Of a DNA stretch of 64,000 nt, positions 45,979 to 50,971 are shown in pieces. Positions within the stretch are counted from its first letter, which is position 1, and every line of letters starts with the position of its first letter. The DNA comes from Rhodococcus sp. ARC_M6. Lineage in GTDB: Bacteria; Actinomycetota; Actinomycetes; Mycobacteriales; Mycobacteriaceae. Below the pieces are notes generated by a model that worked only from the letters and a program-made list of their open reading frames with translations, was not told the origin of the DNA and made no database searches. The DNA lies in contig NZ_JALGQH010000030.1 of NCBI RefSeq assembly GCF_022810305.1, positions 1 to 64,000 of the forward strand, read 5' to 3'. Both the position numbers and the translations under genes were made by a program.

Positions 45979-46302
45979 GTGAGCAAGAACGAGGACTTCG
46001 CACACAACGACATAGCCAGCCGCAGTCGCCGAGAAAAGGCGCTGGGGTTGGCCAAGTTTGCGTGGGATCGAGGGATCACCGGCGCCGAACTGCTGGACAT
46101 GCCCGACGATCGGTTGCGCAAACTCGCTCGGGCGGCGGACGCGAACCCCCCGAGCACCCGCGAGACCTGGACCATTGCGGCAGGGCTCGTCAACGAGAAG
46201 GATCAATGGGCGTCGACGCACCCCGATAGGCCGGAAGCGCAGCGAGCGCATCCCGACGAGAAGATCATGTGGGTGAAAAAGCCGATCGAGCCCTGGCTTT
46301 AG
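45979..46302 (+). CDS. Hypothetical protein, 107 aa
   Basis: A soluble, charged protein with no family I can name. The middle reads GLAKFAWDRGITGAELLDMPDDRLRKLARAA, which suggests a small helical domain, perhaps a helix-hairpin type. A later part is rich in Trp and Pro (VKKPIEPWL at the end). GTG at 45979 was chosen because GAGGAG is nine bases before it. It converges on the acyltransferase gene, and the two stop codons overlap. Function unknown. Confidence 0.65.
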   Translation: MSKNEDFAHNDIASRSRREKALGLAKFAWDRGITGAELLDMPDDRLRKLARAADANPPSTRETWTIAAGLVNEKDQWASTHPDRPEAQRAHPDEKIMWVKKPIEPWL

Positions 46303-47600
46303 CCAGTCTTCTGCTTCTCCAGACACGCCAACACGCGGGCTGCGTTCTTCTCCAGAATCGCCGCATATTCACGGATATCGCCGGCATCCGGAGTGCCGCT
46401 CATCACCGAAATCGTGAGCACATCACCGACCGAATAAATTCCGTGGTTGAACGGACTCCGCGGAGACACGTACGGAAATGATGCGGTCAGCACGATTGTG
46501 GAATCACCCAAAGTCATGGTGGCCGGGCCGCGATTGACGCTGCTCGCCACTGTTCCCAATTTTGGCTCGCTCGCCAGCTTCGGGTTGACAGCGATTGCCG
46601 GAAGTTCGTATTGCAGCGCGCGTACCGCTCGGAAAGCATCGGGAAATCCGGCTTTACCCTTCACATTATTTTCCGTGATGGCAACGATTCGGTCCGCGGG
46701 ATCTTCTTTGTCCATCGCCAAATCGATGTGATAGCAACCCATGTGGTTCTGGCCGCGCACATCGGCGTCGACTGGCGCTCCAGCCATCACTTGCATTGAC
46801 CGTGGACTCTTGTCGCCGAAATGCTCTTCCAACGAGAGGGAAATAATCGTCTGAGCGACGCTAGTTACCGTCGCTCCGGGCCAGAACCCCTTGACGTCTC
46901 GGATCTGCCTCAGGTCAAGCGCGATTGCTGCAGCCGACCGCTGGCCCGAAAATGTCACAGCCCCGCCGCCAGAAATTGGGGCATCGTGTTTTCTCGTCTC
47001 CGGTAACGCGCGAAATGCGCGGATGTATTGCCGCGGAGTGCAGAGCAACCCTTTGACCGACGACCACCAGGGGTTCGGCGCCGTCAGTTCCGGAACAAAC
47101 TCTGGAAGAGGCTTCGACGAAAACAGATCCTGAACAATGACGTTGTACACACGACCGTCACCCATCGCATGTGACGCTTTCAGAATCACCGCAGTGGCCT
47201 CGCCCTGCACACCAGGCGCGTCACGAATGCCTCGGACGACGTGCAGACGCCACAGACTTTCGTAGGGGTCGACGATCTGTGCGGCAATCTCGCTGAAGTA
47301 TTCAAAAGTACCGTCCCACGAAGATATTTCGGTGTTGTCCTCGATATGGTCGGCGATGTCGAACGGTTTCGTGTCGATCCAGTACGGAAAATTTAATCTG
47401 CCGGGAACCCTGGTCAGCGTCCATCGCAATTCAGGAATTTTCGACGCTCGATCTCCGAGAAAATCGAGTAGTTCCGACTTACCCAACGGAATCGAAGTTC
47501 CCGAATCGAACAAGAAGATCGTCAGAACATCCGTCGATCGATTCACGACATTGGCAGCAATCAATTCGAAATCAACCGAAGTCAGTTGGTTCGTAGGCAT
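46299..47600 (-). CDS. Wax ester synthase/diacylglycerol acyltransferase family protein
   Basis: A 433-aa WS/DGAT-family protein. Members esterify fatty alcohols or diacylglycerol with acyl-CoA to store lipid, a prominent trait of rhodococci. The catalytic motif HHxxxDG appears as S143-H144-A-M-G-D148-G149, so the second, catalytic His is kept and the first is Ser. The usual N-terminal FELIAANVVN and the late PFNHGIYSVGDVLTISV block (cf. SNVPGP/ND motifs) are recognisable but divergent. GGAG lies eight bases before the ATG. It may be a catalytically altered member. It lies between the SIR2 gene and an unrelated small gene. Confidence 0.82.
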   Translation of the reverse strand: MPTNQLTSVDFELIAANVVNRSTDVLTIFLFDSGTSIPLGKSELLDFLGDRASKIPELRWTLTRVPGRLNFPYWIDTKPFDIADHIEDNTEISSWDGTFEYFSEIAAQIVDPYESLWRLHVVRGIRDAPGVQGEATAVILKASHAMGDGRVYNVIVQDLFSSKPLPEFVPELTAPNPWWSSVKGLLCTPRQYIRAFRALPETRKHDAPISGGGAVTFSGQRSAAAIALDLRQIRDVKGFWPGATVTSVAQTIISLSLEEHFGDKSPRSMQVMAGAPVDADVRGQNHMGCYHIDLAMDKEDPADRIVAITENNVKGKAGFPDAFRAVRALQYELPAIAVNPKLASEPKLGTVASSVNRGPATMTLGDSTIVLTASFPYVSPRSPFNHGIYSVGDVLTISVMSGTPDAGDIREYAAILEKNAARVLACLEKQKTG

Positions 47601-47624: not shown

Positions 47625-47663
47625 AGCAATGGGGCAAATAGACCATAAACGCTCCCCATTGCT
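47625..47663 (-). terminator. Hairpin between the SIR2-like and acyltransferase genes
   Basis: AGCAATGGGG (47625-47634) pairs perfectly with CCCCATTGCT (47654-47663), with a 19-base loop. On the minus strand GTTTACC follows. It may end the SIR2 transcript or act as an operator for the acyltransferase gene 25 bases downstream. Confidence 0.45.
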
Positions 47664-47689
47664 ACCGCGAATTAGCTACACGAAACCGC

Positions 47690-49189
47690 CTACGGTTTAG
47701 CGCCCAACTCGATAAGCGCAGACTCCAGAGTTCGCCAGCGATCTCGACTTTCGGATGGCAGTTTGCCGATGATCTTTGAGGCGTCGCGCAATGCGTCAGC
47801 CAATTTGACCTCGTCGCCGTCCAGTAAACCCCGGTAGTTCGTATCCAAGAGATACGGGGCGTCCACGCTGGTCAGAATCGACACGCTGTCGAGTAGGATC
47901 TCCAGATCGCGCGCCGCAGTGGCATCGTCTTCGGCCTTCGAAGCGGCGACGTAGTCGAAATCGCCCCGCCACAGCGCAGTCCGCAACGTGTCATTCCGCA
48001 GCGTGATCACAGTCCCCAACGAGCGCTGACGACTATGCCGCTCATTGAGCGCAAGGACTTCATGAGCCAAGCGAAGCACGTTGTCATCTGTCATGGACGC
48101 TCCCACAACTATCAAGTGACCAGTAGCCATGAGGGACTGAACAATTGATCCCAACGGACGCCGTTCAGCGTCATACCTGACGAAGTCTCGTCGACTCAGC
48201 ACTATGCTGGACGGGTCTGAAATATCGCCGTGCAACTTCAGAATCCAGGGCCGATCGGCAGTAACCTCACCTCGAGGGAGTACGGCTATCGAACCTGCGC
48301 CGTGTGCTGATTCAAAGGCTTTCTCGTATAGCGAGTCATAGTTTGTAGTAACAACTTTCGAGACTGCAAGGGAAGACAGCAGGCAGTGCGCCAACGTCGG
48401 CTTGACATCCCGATCACCCGTCAACTCGGCGACGCGCTCGCCCAGTTGGTCCGGCTCCATCGACTTCGACAACAGTTGCGCGCGATCCAAAACCCCCAAG
48501 AGCGCGAAATCTTCGGTGCTCATCTCAGGAAGAACATCGCTTCGAATCGTCTCGAGAAGCCCGTCCCACGTCGGTAAGCCCGCAGGAATGCTGACTCCGG
48601 CACCCAGTAGCAGTGAAACATCTCCCGCTTGCAACTTGTCGGCAAGTTCCTGAACATGCAGTGGCACACCGACATTACGCAGGTGGACACGCCGAACCGA
48701 TTGATAGGCGGCATAGTCGGAATTGTTCGCGACCACAAAGACGATATCGAAGTCGTACTTCGCCGCACATGAAGTTGCCGCCTCAACCAATGCCTTGATG
48801 ACCTGACCGCGAACCATTCCCTGCCCGCCCAATCCCACGCCAAAGGTCGGCAACGCGATCAGCGGCTTGATTCGACGACCACCGGGCTCGATTCCGGTTG
48901 CCGCAATCGCGTCGAGAACATCGTGAACACCGTCCACCAGCCAGGACACCGAAATCCGCGAAGCGACGTTCAACAACCAAACGGGGCGCCCATCCTTCGG
49001 AAATGACCGAATTCGACCGGCGCCAGGCGGCGCCTGGTCCACGGGCCCAGTGATACCGAGGACTGGCCACCAATGATCACGTGGCACAAAACTGCCACTC
49101 GTCGATACCACTGCAGCATCCCAGTCCACCGATTCGAGTCGGCCTCGGACTACAAACACATGACCGGCACTCGCATCATTCTCAGCCAT
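47690..49189 (-). CDS. Macro-like/SIR2 fusion protein, putative defence NADase
   Basis: A 499-aa two-domain protein. Residues about 10-175 resemble a macro domain: WDAAVVSTSG near the start and LIALPTFGVGLGGQGMVRGQ (residues 110-129), like the ADP-ribose loop of macro domains. Residues about 188-440 are SIR2-like: GAGVSIPAGLPTW (196-208), TTNYD (281-285), KLHGD with H320 (318-322) and GASMTDDN (363-370). The TTNYD and LHGD forms are those of SIR2_2-type NADases in phage defence (Thoeris ThsA, DSR-type), not of protein deacetylases. No TIR, HerA or Argonaute partner lies next to it. Inference: senses or binds an ADP-ribose-type ligand and degrades NAD on infection. Orphan gene; 60 bases separate its start from the FadD stop. 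Confidence 0.82.
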   Translation of the reverse strand: MAENDASAGHVFVVRGRLESVDWDAAVVSTSGSFVPRDHWWPVLGITGPVDQAPPGAGRIRSFPKDGRPVWLLNVASRISVSWLVDGVHDVLDAIAATGIEPGGRRIKPLIALPTFGVGLGGQGMVRGQVIKALVEAATSCAAKYDFDIVFVVANNSDYAAYQSVRRVHLRNVGVPLHVQELADKLQAGDVSLLLGAGVSIPAGLPTWDGLLETIRSDVLPEMSTEDFALLGVLDRAQLLSKSMEPDQLGERVAELTGDRDVKPTLAHCLLSSLAVSKVVTTNYDSLYEKAFESAHGAGSIAVLPRGEVTADRPWILKLHGDISDPSSIVLSRRDFVRYDAERRPLGSIVQSLMATGHLIVVGASMTDDNVLRLAHEVLALNERHSRQRSLGTVITLRNDTLRTALWRGDFDYVAASKAEDDATAARDLEILLDSVSILTSVDAPYLLDTNYRGLLDGDEVKLADALRDASKIIGKLPSESRDRWRTLESALIELGAKP

Positions 49190-49249: not shown

Positions 49250-50821
49250 TTACACGCCGGCGACAATCTCCCCCGCGAGGGTTTCCTTCGCCCAGCGGTA
49301 GTCGGCTTTACCGCTCGGGGAGCGCAGGATGGTCGGAACCAGAACTATGGAACGCGGAATCTTGTACCCCGCAACGTGAATACGGCAGTGCTCGGACAGT
49401 GCACCCAGTTCTACGTCTTCGAAACCGGGTCGGACCTGAACGACAGCCGCCACTTTTTCACCGAATCGCGCATCGGGTGCGCCGGCAACCAGAGCGTCGA
49501 AAACCGCCGGATGGGTTTTCAGTGCCTGCTCCACTTCTTCGGGGTAAATCTTCTCCCCGCCGGAGTTGATGCACATGGAACCGCGGCCGAGAAGCACGAT
49601 CGAACCGTCGGCTTCGATCGTGCCCATGTCTCCGGGCACAGCCATCCGGACGCCGTCGATGACGGGGAATGTCGCGGCTGATTTCACCGGATCTTCGAAG
49701 TAGGCCAGAGGAACATGCCCTACCCTCGCGATGTAGCCGACGGTGTCGGATCCCGGCTCGATGCGGCGGAACTCTTCGTCGACCAGAATCATGTTGGGGT
49801 TGGAGCGAATTCGTCGAATTCCGTCCTCCCCGAATTCGAGGACGCCGTCATGGCCGGATTCGGAAGCACCGAATGTATCCTTGATGACCAACCCGGGGAA
49901 CCGGGCCTTCAATTCTTCCTTGAGGTTCAAGGAGAACAGTGCGCCGCCGGATCCGATCATCTTCAGCGTCGAGAGATCGTATTTGCCATCCGATGCCGCA
50001 ATCGCATCGGCGATGGGACGGGCGATGGCGTCGCCGACAACCGTGATTCCGGAGATCTTCTCAGCTTCGATGAGACGGGGTACGTCAGCCGGATCGAAGC
50101 CTCGCGTCAGCACTCGTGGCGCTGCCATCAGGAACGCTGCGAGAAGTGAGTAGATGGCGGCGCCGTGCATGAGAGGCGGAATAAGCAGGAGCACAACAGG
50201 ATTGGTGTTCGCAACGGCTGCAGCGACCACTTCTTCGACACTGAGAAGCGGCGGACCACCGAAGTTCGCGCCGCCGAGAGCCGCGAGGTAGAAGTCTTCC
50301 TGGCGCCAGACAACACCCTTGGGCATGCCCGTCGTGCCACCGGTGTAGATGACAAAATGGTCGTCGCCGGAGCGAGGACCGAAATCCCGTACGTCCGACG
50401 CCGCAGCCAAGGCGCTCTCATACTCGTCCCCCACGACAAGAATGTTCTGAATCGCTGGGCATTTTGCTACGACTGCCCGCGCAAGCGGTGCGAACTCGCT
50501 CTCGACCAGCAGTGCCACCATCTTCGAGTTGGTGTAGACGTACTCGAGTTCAACGTCGGTGTAGCGGAAGTTGACGTTGATCGGAACGGCCCTGATCTTC
50601 ATGCAAGCCAGAAGCGCCTCAACGTATTCCGCACAGTTCCGCATGTGAATTCCGACGTGCTGTCCCGGTTCGACGCCAACGGACTGAAGGTGATGCGCCA
50701 ATCGATTGGCCCGTTGTTCGAGTTCTCGATAGGTGAAACGTTGACCCTCGAGAATCAGCGGCGTGCGATCAGGAATTGCATCGGCCACAGCCTCGAACAG
50801 ATCGGCCACGTTCAGGGTCAT
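49250..50821 (-). CDS. Fatty acyl-CoA synthetase (FadD-like)
   Basis: A 523-aa adenylate-forming ligase. The P-loop is IYTGGTTGMPKGVVW, the second motif is DTFGASESGHDG (Ser-rich, unlike the usual YGxTE), and the hinge block is GRGSMCINSGGEKIYPEEVE. The C-terminal Lys is in LRSPSGKADY. It activates a carboxylic acid, probably medium-chain, steroid side-chain or branched, to its CoA ester. ATG at 50821 chosen over 50833. It diverges from the iron-uptake lipoprotein gene. Confidence 0.9.
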   Translation of the reverse strand: MTLNVADLFEAVADAIPDRTPLILEGQRFTYRELEQRANRLAHHLQSVGVEPGQHVGIHMRNCAEYVEALLACMKIRAVPINVNFRYTDVELEYVYTNSKMVALLVESEFAPLARAVVAKCPAIQNILVVGDEYESALAAASDVRDFGPRSGDDHFVIYTGGTTGMPKGVVWRQEDFYLAALGGANFGGPPLLSVEEVVAAAVANTNPVVLLLIPPLMHGAAIYSLLAAFLMAAPRVLTRGFDPADVPRLIEAEKISGITVVGDAIARPIADAIAASDGKYDLSTLKMIGSGGALFSLNLKEELKARFPGLVIKDTFGASESGHDGVLEFGEDGIRRIRSNPNMILVDEEFRRIEPGSDTVGYIARVGHVPLAYFEDPVKSAATFPVIDGVRMAVPGDMGTIEADGSIVLLGRGSMCINSGGEKIYPEEVEQALKTHPAVFDALVAGAPDARFGEKVAAVVQVRPGFEDVELGALSEHCRIHVAGYKIPRSIVLVPTILRSPSGKADYRWAKETLAGEIVAGV

Positions 50822-50971
50822 CGGATTCCTCACTACATGCGTCTTCGCTTACTTGCACAGGTCTTTCGCGAAGCTAACACGTTCGCTGACGCAGTGACGG
50901 TGAATTGCGTCAGGATGTCCGACCAACGGGAGAAATCATGTACTCGATGCAATTGCGAGTCAATTTTGCCG

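Follow-up and report, generated by a model that had tools for sequence, protein, structure and literature searches.

SIR2 NADases (enzymes that hydrolyse NAD+) are recurrent effectors of bacterial immunity, and in most cases a partner gene or a long sensor switches them on. KomC works together with other Kom proteins. DSR2 is described, in the part of the source available, as recognising a phage tail tube protein directly. According to the accessible part of Shi et al. (PMC11204291), the TM-macro ThsA of E. coli did not hydrolyse either of two test substrates, and self-aggregates upon ligand binding. Here we describe macro-SIR2, a gene in a 64,000-nucleotide stretch of the soil-type actinobacterium Rhodococcus sp. 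ARC_M6 (contig NZ_JALGQH010000030.1, positions 1 to 64,000; hereafter ‘the window’, meaning the whole stretch that was analysed), whose predicted product joins an N-terminal macro domain to a SIR2 domain. Judged from sequence, the macro-SIR2 family is patchy in its distribution and looks like a self-contained phage-defence effector.

The gene and its product are laid out as follows (positions of the window, residues of the predicted protein):

47690..49189, minus strand: macro-SIR2 fusion gene, a single open reading frame with an ATG start, 499 amino acids
48686..49165, minus strand: divergent macro domain, residues 9-168, with the family motif GH[LV]F..xG[RD]L.....D (profile searches, and hhalign with shuffle controls)
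48824..48841, minus strand: GVGLGG, the glycine loop within the macro domain, at residues 117-122 (sequence and family alignment)
48020..48658, minus strand: SIR2 domain, residues 178-390, with the Pfam SIR2_2 match at 278-397 (Pfam, solved chains, family alignment)
SIR2 motifs: GAGVS at residues 196-200, TTNYD at 281-285, KLHGD at 318-322
47693..48019, minus strand: C-terminal extension, residues 391-499, with invariant R427, L433, D434, L448 and D449

The motifs named in an earlier, sequence-only reading of the locus are found at the residues it gave (ALPTFGVGLGG at 112-122, GAGVSIPAG at 196-204, TTNYD at 281-285 and KLHGD at 318-322, with the histidine at H320), and its order of macro first and SIR2 second is borne out by the Pfam SIR2_2 match and, for the macro domain, by profile search and hhalign. 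Beyond residue 397 of the protein there are no Pfam matches. The ratio of nonsynonymous to synonymous substitution (dN/dS) between the window copy and those of two congeners (L003 and L004) is 0.19 and 0.10, values indicative of purifying selection, which argues that macro-SIR2 is a protein under selection.

In the SIR2 half, SIR2_2 (PF13289) matches residues 278-397 with an E-value of 5.2e-25 (88.6 bits; the Pfam gathering cut-off is 24.5), and among solved chains those of ThsA, KomC and DSR2 are the closest in sequence. A profile of 31 family members searched against solved chains reaches 7uxt (deposited under ‘USG protein’, and named ThsA in the available portion of PMC12700824) at E 1e-35, ThsA at 2e-33, KomC at 5e-28, DSR2 at 8e-28 and human FAM118B at 0.001. 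The top PADLOC match is ThsA, confined to residues 179-387; together with the solved-chain matches, it agrees with the earlier view that the relatives of this SIR2 domain are phage-defence NADases. All 31 aligned members keep the catalytic asparagine (N283), and 29 of the 31 keep the catalytic histidine (H320). Assignment of the SIR2 half to the NADase class of enzyme is, as a homology-based prediction, well supported. With two cysteines only (C141 and C269), the window protein cannot form the zinc module of four cysteines that marks deacetylase sirtuins, and is not classed as a canonical sirtuin deacetylase.

Pfam finds nothing in residues 1-186 of the window protein, where the gathering score of PF01661 is not reached, and no macro match among 27 family N-domains. 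A profile of these 27 N-domains nevertheless matches macroH2A1.1 in the PDB with an E-value of 1.7e-5, the top five matches being macroH2A chains; when four sequences from other families are added (31-member profile, hmmsearch, PDB chains), the value for macroH2A1.1 becomes 9.2e-8, and the five top matches are all macroH2A chains, close variants within one protein family. Alignment by hhalign to 22 PF01661 macro domains (24 PF01661 loci minus two fragments) is collinear over 143 columns, with a score of 35.9 (E 6e-5, probability 65%); the control scores are 14.7 for the SIR2 half, 10.2 for the C-terminal part, 11.1 for the reversed profile and at most 21.9 for 20 column shuffles. The macro-like N-terminal domain proposed earlier is thus recovered by two profile methods (hmmsearch and hhalign) and missed by Pfam, and a macro fold of residues 9-168 is supported by these profile comparisons. 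The NAAN and GGGV loop of MacroD-type hydrolases is missing from the aligned rows (GGGV from all 31), with STS or PTD-like letters at the corresponding position, and the glycine loop GVGLGG is retained. Because the NAAN/GGGV loop is absent, we read the macro half as a module that probably binds rather than cleaves its ligand.

Matches to the N-domain (E <= 1e-3) occur in 34 of 401 genomes of the same bacterial family. G183 (L071), an unrelated membrane-type protein, was dropped as a false positive, leaving 33 real carriers among the 401; 27 of the 33 encode the two domains in a single uninterrupted frame, and six (G018, G214, G256, G268, G289 and G294) have only broken or fragmentary copies. 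In this count G214 and G268 are called fragments from match rows alone, and L060, scored as having both domains in one frame, has a last part that runs on in another frame. A phylum-wide sample yields N-domain matches in eight of 396 genomes, one of which, G710 (L131), a low-complexity frame, was dropped as a false positive. In the class-wide sample of 394 genomes from 138 genera, 14 genomes, belonging to 11 genera, have a match, and the full-length architecture is present in all nine class-level loci retrieved, of ten outside the bacterial family of the window (the match in G788 lies outside the retrieved set). On these three samples the protein is no lone oddity, as it belongs to a family spread over the class.

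In a tree of 40 members, the sequences of genus g29 fall into two, perhaps three, separate groups, a placement that suggests transfer or old duplications, and L070 forms a long branch; L052, L071, L072, L073 and L074 were excluded from the family alignments. Pairwise identities of the two halves co-vary (Spearman 0.65 over all pairs of 31 members, pairs that are not independent), as is expected if the macro and SIR2 halves travel together. The two plasmid loci retrieved (L086 and L087) carry SIR2 without the macro part, and the viral contigs searched contain three SIR2-only relatives or none.

The site of the gene in the window is defined by two neighbours and a short repeat:

49250..50833, minus strand: AMP-binding (acyl-CoA synthetase-like) gene, upstream neighbour, gap of 60 base pairs (bp)
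46299..47600, minus strand: WS/DGAT-type acyltransferase gene, downstream neighbour, gap of 89 bp
49251..49256: 6-bp repeat CGTGTA, upstream copy (minus-strand reading), edge of the segment missing from the sister genome G016
47677..47682: 6-bp repeat CGTGTA, downstream copy

The gene occupies the same site in Rhodococcus sp. IEGM 1379 (L003) and R. globerulus (L004), with identities of 87% and 75%, respectively, and the order AMP-binding, macro-SIR2, WS/DGAT-type, all on one strand, is common to the window, L003, L004 and L072, with the macro-SIR2 gene intact or broken. The closest sister, G016, has 98% identity in the synthetase and shares the flanks at 92-94% DNA identity, and lacks exactly the segment bounded by the two CGTGTA copies, that is, the macro-SIR2 gene. 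Loss in G016 is the simpler reading, because the gene, or what is left of it, stands at this site in G003, G018 and G023; the copy in G018 is frameshifted, and that in G023 (L003) has ACG at the position of the window's ATG. G001, G002 and G012 have no matching sequence at the site for either the macro-SIR2 or the WS/DGAT-type gene. The gain and loss of macro-SIR2 is the behaviour of a dispensable gene. The earlier description of an ‘accessory region’ holds for the gene itself and fails for its surroundings, as the site lies between syntenic chromosomal AMP-binding and WS/DGAT-type genes and is no defence island.

Two kinds of repeat were also seen at this site. A perfect 10-bp inverted repeat (AGCAATGGGG / CCCCATTGCT, with a 19-nucleotide spacer) occupies positions 47625-47663 of the window, between the macro-SIR2 and WS/DGAT-type genes, and a similar inverted repeat is retained in the sister genome that has no macro-SIR2 gene. 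In G001 (L124:8660-9290), a short unit of about CGGCTGTCACAGCTGCGCTGAATT is repeated head to tail where the sister clade holds the macro-SIR2 and WS/DGAT-type genes.

That no TIR, HerA or Argonaute gene adjoins macro-SIR2, as the sequence-only reading had noted, is confirmed by its immediate neighbours, AMP-binding and WS/DGAT-type. Single-linkage clustering of the called genes at 31 loci and the window (32 sources, in 29 of which macro-SIR2 itself was called) extends this survey to the homologues: any one neighbour family is shared by five of the 32 loci at most, and an obligate second gene is rejected on that count. The short genes upstream at several loci are mostly unrelated proteins. Thirty families occur at three or more loci, part of them plain synteny of the Rhodococcus loci. 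Those recurring in more distant members are AMP-binding (F1), Fic (F2), helicase-nuclease (F3) and NERD-helicase (F4), with a ResIII/PLD helicase (F5), HNH (F10) and an SMC-like ATPase plus a small gene (F12, F13) as further recurring families; such recurrence supports a role in defence and, through F1, a role in lipid use as well.

Individual loci illustrate these associations. At L054, macro-SIR2 comes after Wadjet JetA, JetB and JetC, separated from them by a 185-amino-acid gene, and a large, Hhe-like MTES_1575/DUF4011 helicase-nuclease lies past two small genes. The divergent macro-SIR2 gene of L070 stands amid same-strand DpdE-, DruE- and DrmD-like helicases, along with a UvrD/GajB-like helicase (L070:401-16214). 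A PDC-S37/Hhe-like helicase-nuclease directly adjoins macro-SIR2 at L049, and its family, by clustering, takes the same place at L050 and L051, lies three genes off at L057 and is a contig-end fragment at L055. The SMC-like ATPase and its small gene are one to three genes off at L062-L064 and at L069, loci that are distant in the tree, and possibly represent a neighbour module recurring in two distant lineages. The ResIII/PLD helicase, NERD-helicase and HNH families are found at four to five loci each, 1-14 genes off; a neighbour at L165 is MkoA-like and one at L164 has a weak DndH-like match, with none for seven other large neighbours. With PADLOC at E <= 1e-10, a scan covering 19 of 25 loci and 100 of 142 proteins matched 100 families among the 100 neighbours, against 22 families among 100 control proteins, for which 20 arbitrary regions were drawn from 20 carrier genomes. 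The association with defence-type neighbour genes is suggestive.

Taken together, we consider the chances about even that macro-SIR2 is a self-contained, single-protein defence effector, a macro-gated SIR2 NADase that probably acts by abortive infection; NADase activity, ligand, gating, oligomerisation and phage defence are all things we infer. The SIR2_2 domain would be an NAD+-hydrolysing enzyme held off in healthy cells, and the N-terminal macro domain, which would bind an ADP-ribose-type ligand without cleaving it, would be its gate, taking the part of SLOG in ThsA. A trigger would turn the enzyme on, probably by oligomerising, and the resulting drop in NAD+ would stop the growth of the infected cell ahead of phage release.

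A number of observations weigh against such an effector. The window locus has lipid genes in place of defence neighbours, and only a minority of the loci have defence-type neighbours at all; AMP-binding genes lie one to two genes off at L053 and L059 too, which would fit a regulator of lipid use. The PADLOC contrast is dominated by few proteins, its control set held RT_UG5-nitrilase (a clear defence protein), and matches to mad3 are commoner in the control (seven vs. three). The aspartate of the GD[IL]T motif, which we take to be the adenine-contacting residue in Af1521, is kept in 11 of the 31 members (the GDL group, L127 among them), a point in favour, and is an arginine in the window protein, which makes ADP-ribose binding there uncertain; the ligand of the macro half may have changed within the Rhodococcus branch. 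An AlphaFold2 model of the whole protein, built from an alignment of three close sequences (including L003 and L004), is uninformative, with a mean predicted local distance difference test score (pLDDT) of 39.5. Unlike many mobile defence genes, the N-domain has no matches in a plasmid collection of 72,556 records searched with two N-domain queries; a whole-protein query matches 277 plasmid and eight phage records, each over less than 80% of its length, and finds no fusion. Finally, L065 and L067 (genus g29), open frames otherwise, carry an asparagine at the position of H320 (KINGD), and their products are possibly inactive or altered enzymes.

A more specific version, which we regard as unlikely, is a self-sensing NADase, in which the macro domain would bind ADP-ribose released from NAD+ by the SIR2 domain of the same protein. 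Such product sensing in cis could turn a small trigger into an all-or-none collapse of NAD+; with the opposite sign, the product would shut the enzyme off. If true, self-sensing would amount to Thoeris-like signalling in a single chain without a TIR enzyme, in a class-wide actinobacterial defence system that has so far had no functional description, and NAD+-depleting immunity would gain a new principle of control, a macro domain that reads its enzyme's own product.

Three other explanations have to be weighed. Rather improbable, in our estimate, is a Thoeris-like effector acting in trans, whose macro domain would read a nucleotide made by a TIR protein encoded elsewhere and so turn on the SIR2 NADase. 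The genome does encode candidates, as a TIR_2 protein and a ThsB_TIR protein flank a SLATT protein on contig C20, and within the genus TIR_2 is found in three of four carriers vs. eight of 20 non-carriers, a small sample. Across all genera, however, a TIR_2 match is present in 15 of 37 true carriers, with no clear enrichment, and neither TIR_2 nor ThsB_TIR, the two TIR families searched, is present in 20 of the 37 (non-carriers were compared in the window's own genus only). Among the identified neighbours, in a set where most were not identified one by one, there is no TIR gene.

We hold it rather improbable that macro-SIR2 is a sirtuin-like regulator of metabolism linked to the use of lipids, one that is transcribed together with the acyl-CoA synthetase-like and WS/DGAT-type genes and acts on acyl-CoA or NAD balance. 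The shared strand, the gaps of 60 and 89 bp and the gene order common to four Rhodococcus loci with the gene or a broken copy would all fit, and bacterial CobB regulates an acyl-CoA synthetase by deacetylation, as described in the accessible part of PMC7272460. However, the zinc-binding cysteines of deacetylases are absent, and the sister G016 keeps both lipid genes without macro-SIR2. AMP-binding genes are abundant (139 first-look candidates in the window's own genome), and those near L053 and L059 may therefore be there by chance; at neither locus are they both co-directional and adjacent, and most other loci have no AMP-binding gene within the retrieved stretch.

Equally improbable as the lipid regulator, finally, is a fused SirTM/macro pair in which SIR2 would ADP-ribosylate a target and the macro domain would take the modification off again, so that one chain would act as writer and eraser or as toxin and antitoxin. 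Links between SirTM sirtuins and macrodomains have been described (PMC12700824 and PMC9503650, each as far as the accessible text goes). The macro half here, however, has neither the NAAN nor the GGGV loop of its hydrolysing counterparts, and among solved proteins it is closest to macroH2A, a binder according to the same portion of PMC9503650; the SIR2 half belongs to the SIR2_2/ThsA type.

Two other loci of the same genome were noted. On contig C9 (L092:8028-11293), a SIR2_2 protein of 427 amino acids adjoins a HerA-domain ATPase of 661 amino acids, a defence pair of the SIR2-HerA type. The TIR-SLATT set on contig C20 (L090:7379-9884) consists of a TIR_2 protein, a SLATT_3/SLATT_1 membrane protein on the opposite strand and a ThsB_TIR protein in a row; it stands beside ParB/DnaB-like genes (named by eye), and is possibly on a plasmid.

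How, then, does macro-SIR2 compare with described systems? DSR2 and KomC have SIR2 domains related to that of macro-SIR2 by sequence; DSR2 differs in length, at about 1000 amino acids. No macro domain is known in DSR2 or KomC. Membership of SIR2-HerA or SIR2-Argonaute systems is rejected, as the adjoining genes are AMP-binding and WS/DGAT-type and neither HerA nor Argonaute. SirTM with Zn-macro likewise links sirtuin and macro functions, but it is a pair with a hydrolysing macro domain (PMC11490716) and belongs to a different sirtuin subfamily (PMC12700824), according to the sections of these papers at hand.

The architecture itself has already been seen by others: in the part of PMC12700824 (2025) available, the legend of Extended Data Fig. 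2 names ‘Macro’ among the extra domains of SIR2_2 proteins. These have the same domain pair by label and may include the macro-SIR2 family or a near one, a comparison made by tree label alone, without members, order or function. We found no functional account of a macro-SIR2 fusion in the literature searched, with most subscription journals lying outside it, and the accessible part of PMC13316683 contains nothing on such a fusion.

The TM-macro ThsA, as far as the available text of PMC11204291 describes it, resembles macro-SIR2 in having a macro domain, which serves phage defence by reading ADP-ribose-type nucleotides without acting as an enzyme, and differs in that its effector is a transmembrane part, not SIR2, and in working with ThsB. 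The ThsA of SIR2-SLOG Thoeris has a homologous SIR2 domain, the best solved relative (residues 179-387), and likewise combines it, within one chain, with another domain that reads a nucleotide (PMC11204291, same portion); in macro-SIR2 an N-terminal macro domain replaces SLOG, and no ThsB/TIR gene is adjacent. Membership of Thoeris is rejected, since no thsB adjoins the gene (TIR_2 and ThsB_TIR lie on another contig) and the PADLOC models of ThsA match the SIR2 part only (179-387). If the proposal is true, a small effector that carries its own reader of an ADP-ribose-type ligand and depends on no obligate partner gene would be a minimal, portable unit, and macro-SIR2 would reveal whether an NADase can be gated in cis by a macro domain.
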